From: Gigantopelta aegis
Lineage: Eukaryota; Mollusca; Gastropoda; Neomphalida; Peltospiridae
Length of the DNA: 64,000 nucleotides
Assembly: GCF_016097555.1 (NCBI RefSeq)
Contig: NC_054702.1
Span: 105,014,226 to 105,078,225, forward strand
Direction: 5' to 3'
In this document: one piece after another, positions 1,092 through 61,000 of the stretch
Numbering within the stretch: the stretch's first letter is position 1
How the letters are laid out: the number at the start of each line of letters is the position of its first letter
The notes under the pieces: model-generated
What the model was told of the DNA's origin: nothing
The model's input: only the letters and a program-made list of their open reading frames with translations
Databases searched by the model: none
Translations under genes and position numbers: made by a program

Positions 1092-10390
<9,299 letters not shown>

Positions 10391-13740: not shown

Positions 13741-14404
13741 AACATTCTTAGCCAAAAAAGTTTAGCAATTTGGTAAATGTACTTAAATAAAAGAGAACTG
13801 AAATCATACATTGGATTTAATTATGGCATCATTTGTCTGTATAAACAGGCGATTTTCAGTACAAAGTTCACTAAAATGTGAAAATTGTTGGGGTGTCCAA
13901 GCAACTTTGGTTTGCATGTTGACAGCGGTACAGTGTCAGCTCGTGCTTCTGAGACTGGATCTTTGGAATAGTGATAGAGATCCATTCACAAGTTGAAGCA
14001 TGTTGTGGATGTGAATATGCACATGGTTCTCTTGCACCCTACGACCCAACAAATCCCACAGGGAACAAATTGGGTGATCTTGCAAGCTAGTTTAGGATTT
14101 CAATATTGTTTTGCTAAAGAAATCCAATAGTTAGTCTTGTCTGAATGCTGGTGTACATGTCCTGTTCACACAAAAAGCCTGGATACTGCTGCATGAATGG
14201 AATGACAATTGGTGATGATTTCTTCACTAATGCTGAGCATTCAGGTTCCCATGAATGATGAAAATGAGGTTGTTTTATCCGATGTCATGAATTTCTGTCC
14301 ACAGCACAACGCTACTACATCATATCAGTCATGTTCAGTGCATAAGGAAACATTGTACCATGGTCAATGCCCAAGGTGCTCGGACATGTTACTTGCATCT
14401 ACTA

Positions 14405-14463
14405 TAGTTTGACACCCAATAGCCAATGTATGTTTCGTGTTGGGGTGTTGTTAAACATCTATT
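14405..14463 (+). mobile_element. 3' tail fragment of the ribozyme-headed retroposon family
   Basis: Matches the last part of the elements at 17828 and 60664 (gtttgacacccaatagcc, then gtgttggggtgttgttaaac) and ends in an ATTCT repeat. It is 5'-truncated, as expected from incomplete reverse transcription. Confidence 0.7.
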
Positions 14464-16796
14464 CTATTCAGACACGTTACTGACAATGTAGTTTTGCCTT
14501 TAGCTTGTGAGTGCTGGATAACAACTATTATTACCAGCACCAGTTCAGGTGCAACTGCCTCCAGAAATAAAACCCAAAAGCAATATTATTTATAAATGTT
14601 TCAATGTGTTTTATTTTGACTGATATAAGTAACAAATGAAGGCAAGTTGTTCATGAGATAAAATAAAATGATCCATAAACCAAATAAACTTCAAAAAACA
14701 AAATACTCAAAACCACTGTCAATAAATAAATACATTATTGTATCATAATAAGCTTATGTACAAAAACTTCAACAAAAATGGATGAGTGATAAGATTACTG
14801 GTAATGCTGAAATAAGAAGAACCTGTCACCGGCTCCAGTAATTGTAGTATAATTTGAGAAAAATAAAAATATGCTTCTGTTTTCCATGTGCAGTTGCTGG
14901 TATGGTGAAGGTGTGTACAGTGGGGAAAATGTACGCATAACTTTTATTCTATGGTTATCATTGGATTATAATTCCAATCTGTAAATATTCTTTTTGTTAT
15001 AAATGCTTGGATTTTGTCAAATTACATTTTGTGACTTTTGAAAAACCCTACCCCAAAACGATGAACTGCAGCTTTAGACTATTTTGTTTATTCATAGAAT
15101 ATTTAAGAATAAACATTTTCGGAATAATCTGTAAGTAATCCTAAAAAAACAAAAAAACACACAAAACTGTCAGGTAACTGCAAAAGCTAAATCTTTCAAA
15201 TATTAATAATTTAACGTACATCTATTAATTATATTCTTTTTATTTCCACTTTCATATACTTTTATTTTCAATATTTACCCATCAGCTGCCAACACCACTT
15301 CGCTTAGTGAATTTGGCTGCCATCTTTATTTTTGTTTACATTAAAGTGATGAAGTTATTTTGATAAACTGCTAAAAAAAAAAACTATTCTTTACTGGAAT
15401 GCTGAACATTTCACAGCATATTCTACACAAATACATTACATTTATTTGAAAAATACAATTTAATATTTAAAAATGCATAATTTATTAGTGTGGGCCTCTA
15501 ACACACTAGTATGCTGGTTATGGATATGAAATTAAAAAGCAGGATTATTAAGGGGTAAAAACCCCAACTAAATGGATGATTTCAGCTGCTTTCTTTGTTT
15601 AATATTAATAAAATAACTCATTATATCTTAACATTGAATCGGTAAATGTTATTGTTTATTGAAATAACATGCAGATATACTTTTTAAAAAAGAATGGAGA
15701 TTCTCCTTATGCTGTGGATTAATTTTCTAAACAAAGGGTTCAGCTGTTATTAAAGTATATGCATTTTATATTGATGTTACAAAAACAGTTATACACTTGA
15801 AATTATAAAAATTTGACGGTAATAATTTTTAATGTTTATGGAAGAATGATCACACAGAATTCTTAAATGAGTGCTGCTGTTTTTTGTTTTTTTGGCTTTT
15901 TAATATGTAAACCTAAATTATTACAGATAATGCCAGTCATTCAGTACTGCCAATAAAAAAATGATCAATACATATTCAATTTATATATGTTCTGTATTAA
16001 GTTGAGAGAGAAATTCTAATGTAAGAATAAATAGGTTCATAAACAAAGGAAATGAAAACTGGAGATGAGAGTTAAAGGGGTAGGAACCATAAGTACAAAC
16101 TGCCTGAACTCTTAATGGGATTAAACAAAGTAAAAAAACCCACCAAAACTACTACCTAAAATAAAATTTAAAATCGGCAGTCTTAAAAAAAAAAAGTGCA
16201 CCTCACATTTCATCTCTTAAATACTGAATATGAAAAAAAGCAGAGTAATCAGTTAAGATAAAAAAAATAAACTAGAGTTCACATAATTACAAATTCATTT
16301 ACCACAAAATAAAACAAAAACAAACAGTCTAGTCTTCAATAAAACAAGAAATATAATTCTGGAATTTGAGCATATTCAGCCTTCACATAGCTAGTTTCAG
16401 TTTTATTTTCAACGATAAGGTCCATGTACTTTTTAGATATAAAACACAATATGACATTATAACCACTGGAATCACACCACAGTTTACATAAAGAACCAAC
16501 ACACATGACATACTAACAATCTTTCACTACCACATAAAAGATCTGTACACATTATTTCATCCTGATCACTAGCAACGAACATGGTTTATTTTATTGCCTA
16601 AAAAAAAAAAAAAAAAAAAAAACTAACAAGATGTAAATAATCTGGCCACCATTTGTAAATGAAAACATACCATTAAACGGTGGCTTATTATATATATACA
16701 AGCTAGGTACGATGAAGGTGATAACACTTATCACAATATATTGTTGTGATCACCAATTTTGATGGTGTCGTATTATAAATGTTAAAGAACTACCTG

Positions 16797-17690: not shown

Positions 17691-17827
17691 AACGACAGTC
17701 TAGTACTACTACTAGACACTACAGTCAAGTCATTCATATAATGTCATGCTTGCAAAGACAGACATCAGCCCTGTTTGACGTATTCCTGATGTGGTCTAGT
17801 TAAAGTTTTTCTGCTCGGTCTGGCTGA

Positions 17828-17899
17828 CCCCTGCGCGTGCTGTAACCTCACCGTGGTGCAGGGGTGTAACATTCTCTTTGAGAATGGCCAATACAGCAC
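17828..17899 (+). ncRNA. HDV-like self-cleaving ribozyme (copy 1)
   Basis: The order of helices matches the HDV ribozyme. P1 is CCCCTGC (17828-17834) with GCAGGGG (17858-17864), 7 bp. P2 is GTGCTGTA (17837-17844) with TACAGCAC (17892-17899), 8 bp. P3 is ACC/GGT (17845-17847 and 17855-17857), 3 bp, closing a 7-nt loop TCACCGT. P4 is CATTCTC/GAGAATG (17870-17876 and 17880-17886). The J4/2 strand reads GCCAA, so the predicted catalytic C is 17888 inside TGGCCAA; the HDV genomic ribozyme has TGGCGAA at the same place. P1.1 is not obvious. Cleavage would fall between 17827 and 17828, exactly at the target-duplication/element border. Activity is inferred, not shown. Confidence 0.8.
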
Positions 17900-18120
17900 A
17901 AATTGAAGTTTAGAGTAGAATTCGGTGTCCGTAACATTCTGTGATATTTGTATTTGTATTTTTGCACAGTTCTTTACACTGTTTTTGTTTAAACCTTGAA
18001 TTTTTATATTGATGTTGATCATCACTTTATTTATTTGCATTACCATAGTTTGACACCCAATAGCCGATGTATTTTTCGTGCTGGGGTGTCGTTAAACATT
18101 CATTCATTCATTCATTCATT
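17828..18120 (+). mobile_element. Ribozyme-headed short retroposon, copy 1 (full length)
   Basis: A 293-bp element flanked by the 12-bp target duplication CGGTCTGGCTGA (17816-17827 and 18121-18132). It begins CCCCTGC, carries the HDV-like ribozyme fold (17828-17899), an AT-rich body of unknown origin, then the block gtttgacacccaatagccga and gctggggtgtcgttaaac, and ends in ATTC repeats. It has no A/B-box head like the other SINEs here. Copy 3 (60664-60956) has exactly the same length and start. It looks like a non-autonomous passenger of a LINE that supplies reverse transcriptase in trans; that partner is not in this window. Confidence 0.88.
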
Positions 18121-18121
18121 C
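18101..18121 (+). repeat. (ATTC)n retroposon tail
   Basis: Four to five ATTC repeats form the 3' end of the ribozyme-headed element, next to its target duplication. Confidence 0.9.
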
Positions 18122-19479
18122 GGTCTGGCTGAACTAGGCAAGCTTTATGAAGGGAGTCTGTAGCTTACAGTTTAAAAAAATTCAAAAGTCAGAATAACAG
18201 CTGACCTACCATTGTAAAAACACATTTAAGTAGACAAAATGGTTTTATAGGCATCAAATTCAATGATGTTTTTTTTTTTTTTTTTTTTTTTATAAAAATA
18301 TAATTTCTGAAACCTGAATATTTATAAACAAGTACAGAAAGCAGATTACACCCCCCCCCCCCCCACACACACACACAAATCCTTGATCCCACATGTTCAT
18401 ACTGTAATGTACATTCCATTATAATATTTAGGTCACTAAAAACAGACATACTTTTGGTTTTGATGTTAATGTCAACAGAATGAATGCTAAACAATAAGAA
18501 ACATGTAACATAGTTCTGTCTTTCTTAGTTCGAAAACTAATCGGACCCATCTTCCCATCTATAACTGATAAAGATCTCAATTCTATAAGTTTACATGTGT
18601 TATAAAAATGAGACTAATATCATTCCAAAAGTCATTTGAAAATAGAAATAGTCACCTGTTTATGTTCAAACCATCGAAACTTTGTATATCTGACCAAGCA
18701 ACTTGATATTAAAACTGATGATGGTTGACCATATGCATGGCTCAAGATGATTCATGTTCATGCACGACTAGAATTATCGCTAACATTCAATGACTACACA
18801 TGATTGACTGCAAACCAGTAATGTAATGGTTCTTATTTAAACAATCAGGCTGACTGCAGTACACACAGTGAAAACCTTCTGTTGTGAATGACGTGCTTTT
18901 GTTGCTGATGAAGTCCTCGTAACAAAACTTGTTTTACAAACATCACAATGTAATAAAATAAATATGCATTATCATGAATAAGGTGGGTTGTCCATTTTTG
19001 GTTGATCAGTGCTTATATTTACTGAACCACAACCATTACCGATTGTTGCATAACCACTGCTTGAATACTTAGGAAGCAAATTTACACCAAGGATGCATCA
19101 ATAAAACACCACACGTTCTCATACTATAAAAATTAATCTAAGAAACCAATTCATCTGGGTGTAAAGAATACAAAACACTTGACCGATATTTACAGCTCAA
19201 TATATACCTTAAACAAGGTATGGTACACATTTGCATTCAAACTCATTCCCGTGAAGAGGACAACATTTCAAAATCTTAGGTAACCTGAACCAGGTTCACC
19301 TGATTTTAACTTGGTGATCGATTGTTTGGTTATGTGATTTGTATGTACATAACCTAATCAATTCCCTCAAACTGGCACTAAAATGAATTATCTTTGCAAC
19401 TCTCAATTTCAGAACATGTAACAGTTCAGTGTAACTAATTGGCAGTTTGCATCAATTTAAAGATGCATAACAGCTCACA

Positions 19480-28100: not shown

Positions 28101-31100
28101 CAAGCCAATTTTAAGTACCATTTCTAATACCATTATCACAACATTAAAACCCCCGCAAAAAACCAGTGTAGCAAATAAAGCAATATTCTCACCTCCAATA
28201 CTGGTAACAGAAGTTACAGAGCGAACCCTTGGGTGTGACGTGAATCTGAGTGGTTTTCACCTTACAGTTGTTACAGTGGTCCCTGTCAACAGTCTGAAAG
28301 AAGATGGCAAACAATGATTCACTGTTGTGAGAAGTGAAACATTGGAGCTGTGTGAAACACACAGTCAGATATACAAGAATGAAAAATAAACATGACATTT
28401 TCTTAGGAACACAAAGGAATTTTAATGGAATGCGATATTGATTAACAACAAAATTTTAAATATTATTTTTAAGAATTAACAGTATAACAACAAAAGCTCA
28501 TTCTTACCCCATTCTCTTTAGTTTCACTGTCGCTATCAGAATTTCTTTCACCTTCATCAGACATGTCACTGTAAATATAGAACACATATTATAGTTTGTA
28601 AATACAACAAAATACCTCTTATGTTCTGATTTATTACTAAGACCTGTACAGTTTGTTGTAAAGCATCAAATGTGAATCAGTAGGTTCATCTGCAATATTG
28701 TACTACTTTAAATATTATGACCAGGCAATGTGTTGAGAAAATAATTTTCAACAATAATTTATTCTTACAGTGTAAATATGCGCATCATGCCATGATAATA
28801 ATGACCGAGCATGAGCAGACGCTACTTCCTCTTCCTTTGAGCACTTGCATTAAGGTATCTAGAAAAGCAAGCGACTGAAATTGTAAAAACTACACACCTG
28901 TCTGTGCCCCGCTGACTGTGAAGTCGCTTGGCTTGTCTGTCCATCAGACTGGTTCGAGATCGTGTTTTCTTCCACGAATAGTAGTACTTCACCAAGGCTG
29001 CTATAGACTTGTCAGGCAGCTATCAATGATAGAAAAAAAATAAAGATGTAAAATTATTAAAACAGGCTTCAAAATGTACTGTATATCTTCGCCTATATGT
29101 CAAAATATCTTCATCAAAGTATTATTTTATAACTTAGGGGGTCGACTTATAAGGGGTCAGATAATTACACAAAAATATTAGCATTTGGTGAAGGTATTGC
29201 AAGTTTTTATTGTTGAATTATTCCAGTGTTTATACTCAAATGTATTAATTTTACAATTTAATTTTTATAACTTTTGTTTTTTGGCATTAGATAAATTTTG
29301 GTTATAAAATGTGTCATGGAAAGATTTTTACTCAGATTGGGAACTTTTAAATAATTAAAACAGAAACTACATGTACAGCTGATTTATAAAACTGGCCCAA
29401 AGAAAATAGTTTGCAATATAAACCATGACAACAGCAATGAAATAGACTGAATTTTGGTTTTAATCCTGTTTATGTAAACCAAGACATTCACACTGCAATC
29501 ATGCTTATCATGCTTGTGTGAGAAATTTACCCAAAACATCTACAACACCATAGGTGCTTTGACAAATTTTAAACAGCCGTTCTCTTACTATCACCTATCT
29601 AACAATTAAAAAAATATATCAATTAATTTCCGAGATTTTAGGGTATGTAATTTTACCCTGTGTACCTTCCGACAGAAACCCTAACTGTGAGATGACTGCA
29701 CAAATATTTTAGTCTTCATCGGCTTACCATTTGTCGGATTCTGTGAAAACTCTTTCCGTGAAAGCTGAATGCCTGTTCAAACAGAACCTTATCTTCAACA
29801 GTCCACTCATCGGGAAATGGGGTGAAATTGGCCAAGTCCGCCAGTGCCCGGTCCACATTGTGCTTGTGCCAAAATAACATTCCCAATGCCTAAAATGAAC
29901 AAAACAAATTGAGAAAAGAAAATAAATATTTCAACATCACAACATAAAAGATAATATTTCATTAACAAGTACAATTTAAACGACATTATGTTGTTAATAT
30001 GCCCATAAAGTCTAAATTAATACATATTAGATCTTGCTATTAAAAAAGGTTGAGGGAAGTGATTTAATTGCTCCCCGAACTTAGATTATGGGGAGTCATT
30101 TAAGATCTTACCATATTGGAAGGAAGGAAATGTTTTATTTAACGACACACTCAACACATTTTATTTACGGTTATATGGCATCAGGCATATGGTTATGGTT
30201 ATGGACTACACAGATACTGAGAGAAAACCCGCTGTCGACATAGCCCAACGGGCCCACCGATGGGGATCGAACGCATTAAAACTGTGCGTCGAGCGAGAGC
30301 TTTACCACTGGGCTACATCCCACCCCTTACCATACTGATACCATATGAAGTCATATGCTAAGGGGAGCTAAAAATTACTCTTGAATTAGTCTCAGGGGAT
30401 TGATGAGGAGCGAGAGTGATAGCTCTCCTTAAAAGCTGAGATCTAGTGTTTATTTTTATTGAACTCACCTGTTCAGTGTTGTAACCATGCTTCTCCTTTG
30501 CAATGGTTGTGTATTCATCAACTTTAAAAAGAAAATAATTAGGGAGTTTATTTCTGAATTTTTGTTTTAAAATTTTTAATTAAAATGTTAAAACGACAAA
30601 GCTGTGATGATTAGCATAAAACTGTTAACCCTCGCACAAAGTGTAAAACTATTGAGGTCCGAATCGCACAACAAAACTAGATACGTCTGAACAGGTAGAA
30701 CTGAATTTTATTTCTTATTACCCCATGTAATCATGAAAACAGCAAATTTGAATGCGAAAATTAATTTTAAAATGTCTAAAAATTACAACTGATGACATTA
30801 ACATAAAAATACCCAAATATTGAATGAATAATATTTAACATCATAGCAACAAAAAAAAAGCAAAAACATTCTACCAATTCACATATAAGAGAAAAAATTA
30901 ATACACACACACACACTTAAGGTAAATATAATGTAGACATAAAAATTTACTTATTGTTATTTATGACTAACTTACTTTTAAGATCTTCCATCTCAATAGA
31001 TGGAGCCCACACGAGCATGGCATCTGTCCGAGAGTCATTTCGAATGCCTGAAACAAAGAACAATGGGTAACTTAAATAATTTATTAACAAGCATGAATTT

Positions 31101-35627: not shown

Positions 35628-35895
35628 GGGTGGGAAAGTGCTCGACTGATGTGTGTGGTTGGTTTGGGGCCGATCCCTATCAGTGGGCTCATCGGGCTAT
35701 TTTTCGTTCCATCCAGTGAACCACAAAGGATGTAGTATGTGCTATCCTGTCTGTGGGATGGTGCATATAAAAGATCCCTTGCTACTAATGGAAAAATGAA
35801 ACAGGTTACCAAATGTTTGACATCCAATAGCTGATGATTAATAAATCAGTGTATCAGTGTGCTCTAGTTGTGTCATTAAACAAAACACACTTTAA
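35628..35895 (+). mobile_element. SINE family A, near full length
   Basis: Head (gggtgggaaagtgctcgact, ggggccgatccctatcagtg), central domain (cgttccatccagtgaaccac, gctatcctgtctgtgggatg, ataaaagatcccttgctact) and tail (aaatgtttgacatccaatag, gtgtcattaaac). Confidence 0.85.
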
Positions 35896-40967: not shown

Positions 40968-41852
40968 CTATTCTTCTATAACATTTGGGACGATGTGATC
41001 CTGATTGATACAAGACTGCATTACTCTCTGATGATGTGGCACTGGCAAGTCATTGTTATAAAACACACGAGTAGTGTTGCTACTGTTGTGGGCATTCATT
41101 AGTTGAGATACTTGTGGTACAACATGATCATCATCGGCACGATTAGACTCTGGACACCAAGTTGTTGGAGTTTCTACATCTGGAATCGGAATTACCTCTG
41201 TTGTGCAGATGCTGGTCTCGGGCAACAAAGAATTAGTCTCAACACTTGAAGACGACTTCGGCAACAGAGAACTGGTATATTGTGATTCTTTACTCGTGTG
41301 TGTCAGATTGTTCATCCTTGTTTTTTCGAGAATGTCAAGCAAACAAGTGATGAAAGGATTGTCATATGAAATATCTCGCTTTATTCCATTACAAGGCGAG
41401 TTTGGTGGAACAGATAGGATAGGTGTTAGTTGAAGCTGTTCACACAAAGGCAGACTTTTCATAGATGAATTATTCAAAGACTTACAAGACCTTTTTCTTT
41501 TCAACAATTTTAATTTTGTTCTGTTTTTATCTTTTTTGTTAGTGTAAACTGATGTTTCAAAATGGAAATCAAGTTCTGTGTTGTCTTCAAAATCAAGCAA
41601 TTTTTGGATACGAGAAGTTGCAGTATTTTTCTGTTTGTATTTCTTCTGTTCAGGGGAATTCCAGAGGATATTAGATGACTTGTGACATCTTAAGTTAATT
41701 TCAGTATCTGGTACCTCAGCTGTTGTCTCATCACACAAACCAAAAAGATCAGTATAATTATTTTCCTCAATTACGTCCTGGTCATGGCTGAGGTTCATAA
41801 CAGTTTTTACACCTGACAGTCCAGTTTCAATATTGCCACCATCCACGGCCAT
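40968..41852 (-). CDS. Unrecognised 294-aa, probably nuclear, protein (single exon seen)
   Basis: An open frame of 294 codons with ordinary coding composition, far longer than neighbouring chance frames and free of low complexity. I do not recognise the family. It is acidic at the N-terminus, has a basic cluster at 106-121 (KKDKNRTKLKLLKRKR) that looks like a nuclear localisation signal, and Ser/Thr-rich stretches at 184-220. A hydrophobic helix-like segment lies at 165-180 (NPFITCLLDILEKTRM). A short motif recurs near the C-terminus: DHVVPQV at 242-248 and DHIVPNV at 285-291. A pyrimidine-rich acceptor (ctttttctattacag) lies eight bases upstream of the ATG, and the frame stays open to it, so there is at least one upstream exon, coding or not. 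Mostly disordered; probably a rapidly evolving linear-motif protein. Confidence 0.7.
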   Translation of the reverse strand: MAVDGGNIETGLSGVKTVMNLSHDQDVIEENNYTDLFGLCDETTAEVPDTEINLRCHKSSNILWNSPEQKKYKQKNTATSRIQKLLDFEDNTELDFHFETSVYTNKKDKNRTKLKLLKRKRSCKSLNNSSMKSLPLCEQLQLTPILSVPPNSPCNGIKRDISYDNPFITCLLDILEKTRMNNLTHTSKESQYTSSLLPKSSSSVETNSLLPETSICTTEVIPIPDVETPTTWCPESNRADDDHVVPQVSQLMNAHNSSNTTRVFYNNDLPVPHHQRVMQSCINQDHIVPNVIEE

Positions 41853-41861
41853 TATATATTC

Positions 41862-43400
41862 TGTAATAGAAAAAGAATGTATGAATATTTAAATTATCGA
41901 TACAGTTATGGCATTTGTTTGTAGTAGTTAAATTACTAACTGGCACCATTATTTGGTTCTTTTTCTTCACCTCATACTTATTACATTCCTATCAGCTTGA
42001 AATGTTATGTTCTTGCAATTCTGTGCTTACAATAGGCAGTTAAGAGTAATGTCTGCTTTGATAAAGCATAAAGCGCATATTAAATATAAACATTAAAATG
42101 TATCTATATATAAGTATTCCTTGGGTTGTTTTTGAATAGTATAAATCCTTAAACAAATTAAGATTAGTCATTGCTATATTTCAACTGTAGTGATTTCCCT
42201 AGAAATTTAGCAAGGCAAGGTAGACCAAACACTTTTGGGGCATTTTCACCATTTTCGGGGCACTTGTTTTTTTATTAAAAATACACAAAAATTAATTGAA
42301 ATAAACATTAATGTAATTTATGAGCTTTTTTTAATAAATGAATGGAAAAAGATATAAAAGGCATATTTTATTAATTAATAATACCTTTTTGGGTTTTTTA
42401 TAAAGGCAATTTTAGAATTAATTACTGAAAAAGGCTTGTTTAATCTATTTATATAATTTACAGCACTTTTTTGTTGCAACACAGAAGTGTAGGGTACATG
42501 TGACATCTTCATATATGGATATAAACAAGTATTGACCATGCAGTGCTGTATTACACAGTGCTTTTATATGTTAGTTAAGCATTACTTGCCTAACAATTTC
42601 ATTAACAGACCTTGCTGTTTAAGGGAACATATCTCTTTGGCTTCCCATAACTCCCCTGAGACTAAAGTCAAAACCACATCATTAACAACTACATTTAATT
42701 ACCACACTTTGTCCAAACACAAACTGTAAAAAAAACCCCATTTAGAATGACACAGATTTAGCATGCTAAATTATAGACAAAACACATGCAATTTTTGCTG
42801 CATTTTTTTTTATGGAATACTCTTCAAAAGGGATGTATCAATATGACATAATCTTATGACATAATCTTACAATGTCATGACATGTGCTAAGGTATAAAGT
42901 AACCATCATGGCATCAAATTAATTACTTTTATACATCAGAGGCTTCCACATCTCAAGAGTACCAGTATTTCATAAAAAAGAAAAATGACAGACGGTGAAA
43001 ACTTGTATGTGTTTTTCCTAGAACTGAAGATCTTAGTGAAGCCTATATAGATATGGTTCCAGTCTATTCTAATATGTGGAATCCATGTCATTGTAAATTA
43101 AAATCATTACGTTTTATGTCTGGGCAACATGTGGAGAAAATCTAAAAATAATTAAAGGTATAAAAGTAAATTTTTGTAGTTGTTAACATTGTGGTTCAGA
43201 CTTTAAGGTTGACAACAGTCTTTCTTCGCACCCTTGTTTTTGCTTCATATACAATAAATATAACATATCCAACAGTAATTTTCTGATATGATATATTTGA
43301 CAAAAGGTACTTTTTATTTCTTGCATCTTTTTAAACTTAAACTTAATATTTTGTCCCAAAAAAAAGAAAGAAAAGAAATACTGACCTATAAATAGCGTTT
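41862..43400 (+). other. Upstream intron or intergenic DNA of the 294-aa gene
   Basis: Starts at the acceptor of the 294-aa exon (minus strand). No further exon of that gene could be identified. AT-rich; no recognised element. Confidence 0.4.
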
Positions 43401-44069: not shown

Positions 44070-44136
44070 TAGTTTAACAGCCAATGGCCAATGTATTTTT
44101 TGTGCTGGGGTGTCATTAACATCTATTCTATTCTAT
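44070..44136 (+). mobile_element. 5'-truncated tail of the ribozyme-headed retroposon family
   Basis: A 67-bp insertion with the target duplication TCGACCTTAGTT (44058-44069 and 44137-44148). It keeps only the tail block (ccaatggccaatgta, gtgctggggtgtcattaac) and ATTCT repeats. Confidence 0.85.
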
Positions 44137-44159
44137 TCGACCTTAGTTCAAGGAGTCAT

Positions 44160-48508: not shown

Positions 48509-48776
48509 AATGAATGAATGAATGAATGAATGAAAAATACATCGGCTATTGGGTGTCAAACTATGGTAATGCAAATAAATAAAGTGATGATCAACATCAA
48601 TATAAAAATTCAAGACTTAAACAAAAACAGTGTAAAGAACTGTGCAAAAACACAAATATCACAGAATTTTACGGAAACTGAATTTTACTAAAAACTTAAA
48701 TTTTGTGCTGTATTGGCCATTCTCAAAGAGAATGTTACACCCCTGCACCACGGTGAGGTTACAGCACACGCAGGGG
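48509..48776 (-). mobile_element. Ribozyme-headed short retroposon, copy 2 (nested)
   Basis: The minus strand begins CCCCTGC at 48776, follows copies 1 and 3 through the body and the tail block, and ends in ATTC repeats at 48509-48532. Two extra bases (TG on the minus strand) lie between the 5' target duplication and the first base of P1. The tail end is about 25 bases shorter than in the other copies. Confidence 0.88.
48705..48776 (-). ncRNA. HDV-like self-cleaving ribozyme (copy 2)
   Basis: All helices of copy 1 are kept: P1 CCCCTGC/GCAGGGG, P2 GTGCTGTA/TACAGCAC, P3 ACC/GGT and P4 CATTCTC/GAGAATG. The only change is in the P1-P2 joiner (GT instead of GC). The predicted catalytic C is the complement of 48716. 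Confidence 0.78.
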
Positions 48777-52262: not shown

Positions 52263-52622
52263 AAAAGTAAAGTTTGTTTTATTTAACGATGTCACTAAAG
52301 CACATTGATTTTTTATCTTATCATCGGCTATTAGACGTCAAACATATGGTCATTCTGACACTGTTTTGTAGAGGAAACCAGCTGTTGCCACATAGGCTAC
52401 TCTTTTATGACAGGCAGCAAGGGATCTTTTATTTGCGCTTCCCACAGGCAGGATAGCACAAACCATGGCCTTTGTTGAACCATTTATGGATCACTGGTCG
52501 GTGCAAGTGGTTTACACCTACCCACTGAGCCTTGCGGAGCACTCGCTCAGGGTTTGGAGTCGGTATCTGGATTAAAAATCCCATGCCTTGACTGGGATCC
52601 GAACCCAGTACCTACTAGCCTG
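52263..52622 (-). mobile_element. Chimeric SINE (family B head, family A tail), second copy
   Basis: Near-identical in structure to 40385-40765 (gggatcttttatttgcgctt, ggatcactggtcggtgcaag, ctcagggtttggagtcggta), but the tRNA head stops at agtacctactagcctg, so the A-box end is missing. Confidence 0.85.
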
Positions 52623-58000: not shown

Positions 58001-61000
58001 TTGTATGTTAACAATTGAAAGATAAATTGAGGGGAGTGATTAATTGCTTTCCAAACTTAGATTATGGGAGATATTTATATTATTATCATACTGAACATTG
58101 AAATTTATTAATCCTTTTGTAATACTATTGTAAGAAAAAATTCATATGCTAAGGGAAACTAAAAAATACTCTCCTTGATATAGCCCCAGGGTAATGAAAG
58201 GGAACCAGGCTAGGGATTTTCGAAGCTACATGGCTGCTAACTGTCCGTCGTGAGACAGATTTCCGTCGTCGGAGAAATTGTGGAAATGATGTTTTCAGTG
58301 GGGTTTTTTTGTGTTTTTTTAAAATGAGAATCACTTAGCGCTACGAAATCATAAAATCATCATAGGTTGTGACGTCACCATAGCACAGGCCATAGTGACG
58401 TCATAGCTTATGATGGTGTTACGATTTCATAGCGCTAAGATTGCTTCGAAAATATGTGCACAGAGTGAGAGCTCGCCTTAAAGAGCGAAGTGTGATTGAT
58501 GATTTAATCTAACACAGCAGCACATGGTACTTGTAGGTTGGCCGGTAAGAAGGCTGCTATAGGATACACGTACGAGGATAGCACCCCGGCTGTAGACGAG
58601 GAAGATGAGGATGAAGACACCGATGAGAGCAGCGACACTGACATCGAGGCTGCTGACCTTGGTAAACTGTTATACTTTGTTATTACTTGTAGTTTTTCAT
58701 GAAAATTTGTAAGGTCTGTTCATAGGCATATGAATTCAAATTCTTCATCAGTTCATATATAGTCTTAACTGATTGGTAATGCTGGACATATATTTGGATG
58801 GCAAGCTTAAATTATTGTAATAAAATTACTAAATTACCATTGGTATGTTAGAAATAGAAATATAAAGCTACGGTTGATGATTTAATTTTAACAAAGCATG
58901 TGGTACCTGTAGATTGGCAGGTAAAAAGGCAGGAAAAATACCAATATCGAGGTTGATGATTAGGTAAACTGTCATTTTTTTTCTGAAATTTGTACAGTCA
59001 ATCCATAGGCATAATAATTCAGATTATTCCTTAGTTCAAATATATTCTAACCGATTGTATTATCGAAAGTCAATCGGCTGATGTAAGCCAATTATAAATT
59101 ATAGAATTCTAACCGATTCCCAACACTAAGACTCGGTGAATATGATATATGATTCTGTTTGTGTGTTACAGATATCACACTGAACGTGGATGAACTAACG
59201 CCAGATCAGATCGTTGCTGTTAACCAGTGTGCCGAGATATACGGCATGAAAAATGATGACTTTGTCAGGTAAATGAATACCACCTAGAGTAATTAAGAGT
59301 ATTAGAGAATAGATTGAAGATTCTATTTTATATATAGTAAATAAAATGAGGTAATATCAATCTCTCATTCTGATATTGGTCCCTTCATTTTAAAGCAATT
59401 TTGAACATTCTTCTATTCTTCTTTCTGCAAAAAAAAAAGAAGGTTTTTTTTTTACAGTATTTACAATATAGAGGGTAGGTGATAAAACAAATCGAAATTT
59501 GTCCATTCAAGATGCCTGAGGACGCAACATTTGGATTTGTAACTGAAACTTGTACAGCTCACACTCACTATTAAATAAAAAAATTGCTGTTTTTACAAAA
59601 CATTAACACTTAAATATTTTGTTATGTCCCAACAGTGTTTACTATTCTCACTGGTTTTATATCTTTCTCTTTTCTCCAATTTTACTTTAAGGTTGCTTAT
59701 GAAAGATAAAGAAGAGTTGGAAGCCTTGAGACAAGCTAAGATTATTGAAGAAGAGAAAGCTCAGTTTGCAGTATGATTTTTAATTTTATAAGTTTAAAAA
59801 AATGCTTGTTTTAATTGTTGGTATTCTATTGAAAATAACAATTTTTGTACAAATTTATTTTAAATTACTTTTTTGTTGTTGATTATGTCAAATGTTTTGT
59901 GCAGGATTTGATGTCTAGTTAAAATTTAGATTTTTACTAATGGCTTGATCACCTAGCTTCTGGCATTGTTTTTTGGTGGTAAAAACATCAGCTTAACATT
60001 CCCAAGGCAGGCCTTCTGCCAGAAAATAATATGAAGATATGTAATAAAAACTAAACAGATCATAAGTCTTCCTACTAGGTGGTTATGGGTTTGAAATCTT
60101 TTAAAATTGGACACTGCATTTCATGTACTTTAAGAAATTGTAAACAGTATTTCTCTTATTATATAATCTTTCAAAAAAGTATTAAAATGTATCCATTAAT
60201 ATCCAAGATTTTTGGGTAAGTAATTTTATACTTCATAACCACTGACGTCATGTCATGTGTCTTGTTGAATTTATTTTTCAGCCACTTTTTAAAACATAGG
60301 AAATGTCATCCAGGCCTTTTTTTTACTGGCTTTTTTTACTGGTAAACAAGTTGGTCCTCTCCTTTTGCCAGTGACAAGTTTTTGTCACTTGTCTATCACA
60401 GACTTGTTACACACTGCCAATGTTGTCACCCTATCCAAAAGCATTGGTATGGAAATATCAGTTTGTTGCCAAAAATATACATTGAAACAGATTTTATTTG
60501 TGACTTACTAAATGTATTTCAAAGCAGATTTGTAAATTAATTCATGACACTATGCAACTATAATGATAATTGTTTTGTTGCTAAATAGTTTTGTTACGAT
60601 TGTCAGTAGGTAATATTCATCTGGTTGCAAAACATAGTTAATGTAGCATTCAAGTAGGGTAACCCCCTGCGCGTGCTGTAACCTCACCGTGGTGCAGGGG
60701 TGTAACATTCTCTTTGAGAATGGCCAATACAGCACAAATTGAAGTTTAGAGTAGAATTCGGTGTCCGTAAAATTCTGTGATATTTGTATTTGTATTTTTG
60801 CACAGTTCTTTACACTGTTTTTGTTTAAACCTTGAATTTTTATATTGATGTTGATCATCACTTTATTTATTTGCATTACCATAGTTTGACACCCAATAGC
60901 CGATGTATTTTTCGTGCTGGGGTGTCGTTAAACATTCATTCATTCATTCATTCATTCAAGTAGGGTAACAGCAGAACAAAGCTATTGATTGTTTCAGTCT

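Follow-up and report, generated by a model that had tools for sequence, protein, structure and literature searches.

The stretch of DNA analysed here (the window, 64,000 nucleotides) carries three copies of a dispersed short retroposon whose first 72 nt can pair as a delta-like ribozyme. We are fairly confident that the element is a non-autonomous retroposon in which such a ribozyme frees the 5' end from host transcripts and which is moved by a LINE. In place of a pol III promoter, this element of about 290 nt would then be headed by a delta-like self-cleaving ribozyme. Where a host transcript contains a copy in sense orientation, that copy would fold and cleave immediately 5' of nt 1, and the freed RNA, with its 3' tail domain and (ATTC)n, would be recognised by a LINE reverse transcriptase, whose machinery would insert it by target-primed reverse transcription. 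If true, self-release from host transcripts spares a short retroposon the need for its own promoter, and does so in a dispersed family instead of in rRNA genes or polycistronic genomes. The features of the three copies are as follows (window coordinates, strand, feature, basis).

17828-18120, +, copy 1, about 293 nt (window comparison)
17815-17827, +, 5' target-site duplication TCGGTCTGGCTGA of copy 1, adjoining nt 1 (letters, duplication test)
17828-17834, +, P1 5' strand, with the predicted cleavage between 17827 and 17828 (letters, descriptor, Rfam 28.3 bits, below gathering)
17837-17844, +, P2 5' strand, partner 17892-17899 (letters, descriptor, pair count)
17845-17857, +, P3 (17845-17847 with 17855-17857) and the 7-nt L3; P1.1 possible between 17849-17850 and 17865-17866 (letters, pair count)
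17858-17864, +, P1 3' strand (letters, descriptor)
17870-17886, +, P4 hairpin, 7 bp, UUU loop (letters, folding)
17887-17899, +, J4/2 with the predicted catalytic C17888, then the P2 3' strand at 17892-17899 (letters, descriptor; catalysis by analogy)
17900-18039, +, AT-rich body without notable sense reading frame, three T5 runs (letters, ORF list, box scan)
18040-18097, +, 3' tail domain homologous to the tails of other repeats, predicted GACACCC/GGGTGTC hairpin (alignment, folding)
18097-18119, +, terminal repeat (ATTC)n (letters)
18120-18132, +, 3' target-site duplication of copy 1 (letters, duplication test)
60664-60956, +, copy 2, 99.66% identity, duplication CATTCAAGTAGGGTAAC at 60647-60663 and 60953-60969 (window comparison)
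48509-48776, -, copy 3, 88.8% identity, tail domain shorter by 20 nt, duplication ACAGACAGGATA with an extra TG at the 5' junction (window comparison)

The segment 17828-17899 makes up the first 72 nt of copy 1. Its possible pairings are P1 (nt 1-7 with nt 31-37, 7 bp), P2 (nt 10-17 with nt 65-72, 8 bp), P3 (nt 18-20 with nt 28-30, 3 bp, closing a 7-nt loop) and P4 (nt 43-49 with nt 53-59, 7 bp), and a 2-bp P1.1 (C22-G39 and A23-U38) can form as well. As far as pairing goes, all five helices of the double pseudoknot can be drawn in the HDV-like order, and the letters agree with the original prediction of P1, P2, P3 and P4 at these positions. J4/2 reads GGCCAA and contains C61 (window position 17888), which we take, by analogy with HDV, to be the catalytic C; the role of the U that opens L3 is assumed on the same grounds. 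The element has TGGCCAA where HDV genomic RNA has TGGCGAA. Folding without pseudoknots retains P1 and P4 and loses P3, and 6 of 200 shuffled sequences fold equally well.

We searched the window with a strict descriptor (P1 of 7 bp, P3 of 3 bp, L3 opening with U, P4 of at least 4 bp, G-C-N-R-A, P2 of at least 5 bp) that was composed from known HDV features after the sequence had been inspected. It matched three times on the two strands, and each match starts at nt 1 in one of the three copies of the element. One hundred dinucleotide shuffles of the window gave 15 matches in total (0.15 per window), i.e., a chance rate of about 1e-6 per position (15 in 100 x 128000 positions). A laxer descriptor gave an extra overlapping match at 17808, with the P1 5' strand drawn from the flank, and in a 200-kb stretch of another contig it found four matches unrelated to the element, two of them of identical sequence. 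The fold alone is therefore not rare at relaxed settings, and what counts is its position at the first base.

The covariance-model search suggested with the original prediction missed the curated threshold: HDV-F-prausnitzii, a 74-nt model, scored 28.3 bits (E 0.0036 for 701 bases scanned) against a gathering score of 44, and no Rfam match was found at the ribozyme segment at gathering thresholds. Each of seven loci scanned gave one row for the same model (22.4-30.8 bits). No HDV row appeared in scans of the whole window or of a 70-kb control at E<=2, nor at E<=1 in the older second copies found at two of the genomic loci (L036 and L040). Rfam support for the HDV-like class is thus weak; since HDV-F-prausnitzii covers one named group, a score below gathering is still compatible with that class. 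Exact ribozyme or tail patterns were absent from the viral and prokaryote contig collections, a result that says little for collections of this kind.

The element's own genome (1.149 Gb, 5216 contigs) gave 51 first-look candidates, of which 40 were scored, so that the counts are lower bounds: at least 40 places and one partial module, spread over many contigs. The 5' starts of the 40 matches listed fall at nt 1 in 37 cases and at nt 2, nt 21 and nt 50 in one case each, a share at nt 1 that is possibly inflated because the matches listed favour full-length, well-matching copies (copy 3 is not among them). Adding the three window copies to 38 genomic copies with flanks gave 41 copies for examination, of which 39 start at nt 1-2 and two (L037 and L045) are 5'-truncated. 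The 200-kb stretch of another contig held no full copy (top model score 15.5 bits) and one older relative, 74% identical to nt 138-270.

The 5' end is fixed independently by target-site duplications. Of the 39 copies starting at nt 1-2, 34 are flanked by an exact duplication 8 bp or longer, which directly adjoins the start in 28; with swapped flanks the corresponding counts are 20 and 2 of 1482. In this count L013 was measured from its first module, and the duplications of L015 and L041, both among the 28, are simple repeats. The five copies with no such duplication are L020, L021, L024, L034 and L044, and a 12-bp duplication was found in L024 behind a longer tail. One or two bases separate the duplication from nt 1 in six copies (e.g., TG in copy 3). 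The insertion marks, namely duplications some 8-17 bp long and 5' truncation in the odd copy, together with the dispersed copies, the ATTC tail and the 37 of 40 listed matches that begin at the predicted cut, bear out the earlier description of a short non-autonomous retroposon with the fold at its exact 5' end. Twenty-one of the 34 duplications open with at least 2 nt from the end of the tail unit CATTC, which would be consistent with pairing between tail and target at priming.

Three other types of element were considered and rejected: a cut-and-paste DNA transposon, given the variable length of the duplications, the 3' simple repeat and the two 5'-truncated copies; a satellite array, as the copies listed are scattered over many contigs; and a site-specific element of the R2 type, as the flanks of the copies differ.

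One locus has an unusual 5' end. In L013 (237-643; G000:C12:772363-772769) modules of nt 1-56 and nt 1-57 stand ahead of a full copy; both half-ribozyme modules restart at nt 1, with one base between, and a single duplication, TTCTTCTTTTAAA, encloses all. Such restarts are expected of a reverse transcriptase that reaches the end of its RNA template at nt 1 and then switches back. Run-off at the RNA end followed by template jumps is the simplest reading, and duplication at the DNA level may be an alternative. The ribozyme, being internal to the element, is retained in a full-length copy. At the other end of the element, the final 20 nt of the tail domain are missing from copy 3 (48776-48509, minus strand), whose ATTC tail and duplication are normal, meaning that the 3' hairpin was absent at insertion or was lost afterwards. 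The element is apparently non-coding. Antisense stop-to-stop frames at 17765-18091 (minus strand, 108 aa, copy 1) and 60550-60927 (minus strand, 125 aa, copy 2) have a common antisense peptide.

We then compared the variability of the ribozyme with that of the rest of the element. The rate of minor states among the 39 copies is 0.016 in nt 1-75, where the unpaired nt 9 in J1/2 accounts for roughly one third, and 0.072, 0.037, 0.029 and 0.088 in the successive regions that follow. Minor states occupy 4 of 546 cells in P1, 2 of 624 in P2 and none of 234 in P3. C61 is present in 38 of the 39 copies (it is changed in L015), nt 21, the U of L3, is unchanged in all 39, and L044 carries a 7-nt deletion through nt 40-46. 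Variants common to at least 3 of the 39 copies number 3 in the 72 nt of the ribozyme, 12 in the 140 nt of the body and none in the 57-nt tail. The three in the ribozyme lie at nt 9 (J1/2), nt 24 (L3) and nt 47 (a U-G pair), and none of them breaks a pair. Private changes per nt per copy are fewest in the ribozyme (0.0050; body, 0.0130; tail, 0.0153), which is possibly a search effect because candidates were perhaps chosen by uncommon words.

Pairs were counted in 19 rows, 17 of them distinct: copy 1 of the window, 16 ribozymes out of the 20 distinct ones among the genomic copies, and the two older second copies (L036, L040). The paired share is 98.7% of 459 cells, a value flattered by the four ribozymes left out (L015, with its changed C61; L044, with its 7-nt deletion; L021; L030). 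None of the 27 pairs is changed on both sides in the 17 distinct rows, the copies being too similar, and in the covariation control shuffles match the observed values 500 times out of 500. This absence of covariation, the Rfam score below gathering and the matches of the relaxed descriptor at places unrelated to the element would all suit a chance or decayed fold with no function that happens to head an ordinary retroposon. Such a fold would however have to arise exactly at nt 1, where the strict descriptor expects one match in about a million positions, and the three common ribozyme variants would all have kept their pairs by accident. Largely from the position at nt 1 under the strict descriptor, we regard this explanation as very improbable.

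A second explanation is that a promoter starts transcription at nt 1 and that the fold does not cut, being a remnant or having a role in translation or in RNP binding. The element does contain an A-box-like 11-mer at nt 27 that matches at 11 of 11 positions. Its best B-box match reaches only 8/11, and T5 runs occur at nt 132, 155, 174 and 245, which together make full-length pol III transcription unlikely. In the control on SINE-like repeats of the window, the repeat at 52353 reached 10/11 for the B box and that at 35806 only 8/11. Given that we take the latter for a SINE with a tRNA-like head, the box scan must be considered weak. ARAGORN found no tRNA anywhere in the window, SINE-like repeats included, so that both tests discriminate poorly and the proposed lack of a tRNA-type head is tentative. 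A promoter with an inert fold is also hard to reconcile with helices, L3 U and C61 that are nearly invariant (nt 61 changed in 1 of 39 copies, nt 21 in none), and we judge it improbable, if clearly less so than a chance fold. The two functions can coexist: Pr77 of L1Tc reportedly acts as a promoter and also as a ribozyme (PMC4035085). By analogy, an internal promoter may overlap the ribozyme here too.

The 3' end of the element connects it with other repeats. We aligned the tail domain (18040-18097) to nine window repeats preselected for resemblance and compared the scores with those of 300 single-base shuffles: six alignments beat all the shuffles, one was equalled by 1, and two were equalled by 57 and 13. 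The SINE-like repeats at 35806-35836 (plus strand) and 52353-52322 (minus strand) have tails homologous to that of the element, and none of the 300 shuffles was as good for either; the B-box-like sequence of the latter stands where the element has the ribozyme fold. Two of the six best matches are tail-only insertions ending in (CTATT)n. A common tail of this kind suggests that one class of LINE recognises these repeats and the element. It may be, with chances a little short of even, that the element represents a class of SINE in which a delta-like ribozyme replaces the tRNA head, ribozyme- and tRNA-headed SINEs sharing the tail of one LINE. If so, the same LINE machinery serves elements that use pol II read-through and elements that use pol III.

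The tail-only insertions at 14389-14470 and 44070-44138 (both plus strand) are about 65-80 bp long, end in (CTATT)n and have near-exact flanking duplications by eye; they probably derive from a related element by extensive 5' truncation. The 200-kb stretch has several more tail-only insertions, and duplications can be seen by eye around some of them. As a genome query the tail gave no rows, in a search that skips very common words.

The element could also have originated as a SIDE, by internal deletion of a LINE that carried this 5' ribozyme and this 3' tail. The mechanism would be that of our preferred reading, with a different origin, and both can hold. Precedents are found in the R2 SIDEs and R2/R1 hybrids of Drosophila (PMC3414825) and in NARTc and RIME (PMC4035085). 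On the other side, no such LINE was seen in the window and the 200-kb stretch, where a crude scan for reverse transcriptase motifs gave no match, although this says little either way. We consider this origin plausible, while leaning very slightly against it.

Delta-like ribozymes are already known at the 5' end of some short retroposons. The R2 SIDEs and R2/R1 hybrid SIDEs of Drosophila combine a 5' delta-like ribozyme with a LINE 3' end, and in the hybrids the ribozyme of one element is joined to the 3' end of another (PMC3414825). Like these, the element described here is non-autonomous with a delta-like fold at the 5' end. R2 SIDEs reside in rRNA genes and are co-transcribed with rRNA, whereas our element is dispersed, with unrelated duplications, and has a tail common to other short repeats. 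The trypanosomatid retroposons NARTc, RIME and SIDER are likewise short and internally deleted; they have the 5' Pr77 region, whose delta-like ribozymes have proved active in several of them (PMC4035085). They derive from L1Tc/ingi LINEs in polycistronic genomes, and our element is likened to them by description, not by sequence. Animal non-LTR retrozymes, reported from a mussel among others, are short non-autonomous elements with self-cleaving hammerheads and circular RNAs (PMC7761336); our element differs in having one delta-like fold and no tandem full units among the copies examined. The variability of R2 ribozymes and R2 in animals are treated in PMC3774820 and PMC5035012, respectively. 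A survey of bivalve transposons mined SINEs partly by tRNA-related heads, and the words 'ribozyme' and 'hdv' are absent from its main text (PMC10294476). No description of the element was found in the literature searched, to which subscription papers were largely external. What is new is thus a dispersed element of this type, outside rRNA genes and trypanosomatids, whose tail is common to differently headed SINE-like repeats. SINE finders that require tRNA-like heads would miss such families, and the many natural copies, being of different ages, would allow ribozyme retention to be compared with mobility.

The window has other features. A 0.7-kb repeat is present at 7804-8454 and 23221-22518 in opposite orientations (90% identity), and a tandem pair lies at 25915-26306/26305-26700 (98% identity). 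Rfam reports a U3 snoRNA-like match at 30529-30695 on the plus strand (27 bits, gathering 34). An open frame at 41001-41888 on the minus strand, with a single relative at 51% identity, is perhaps a fast-evolving host exon.
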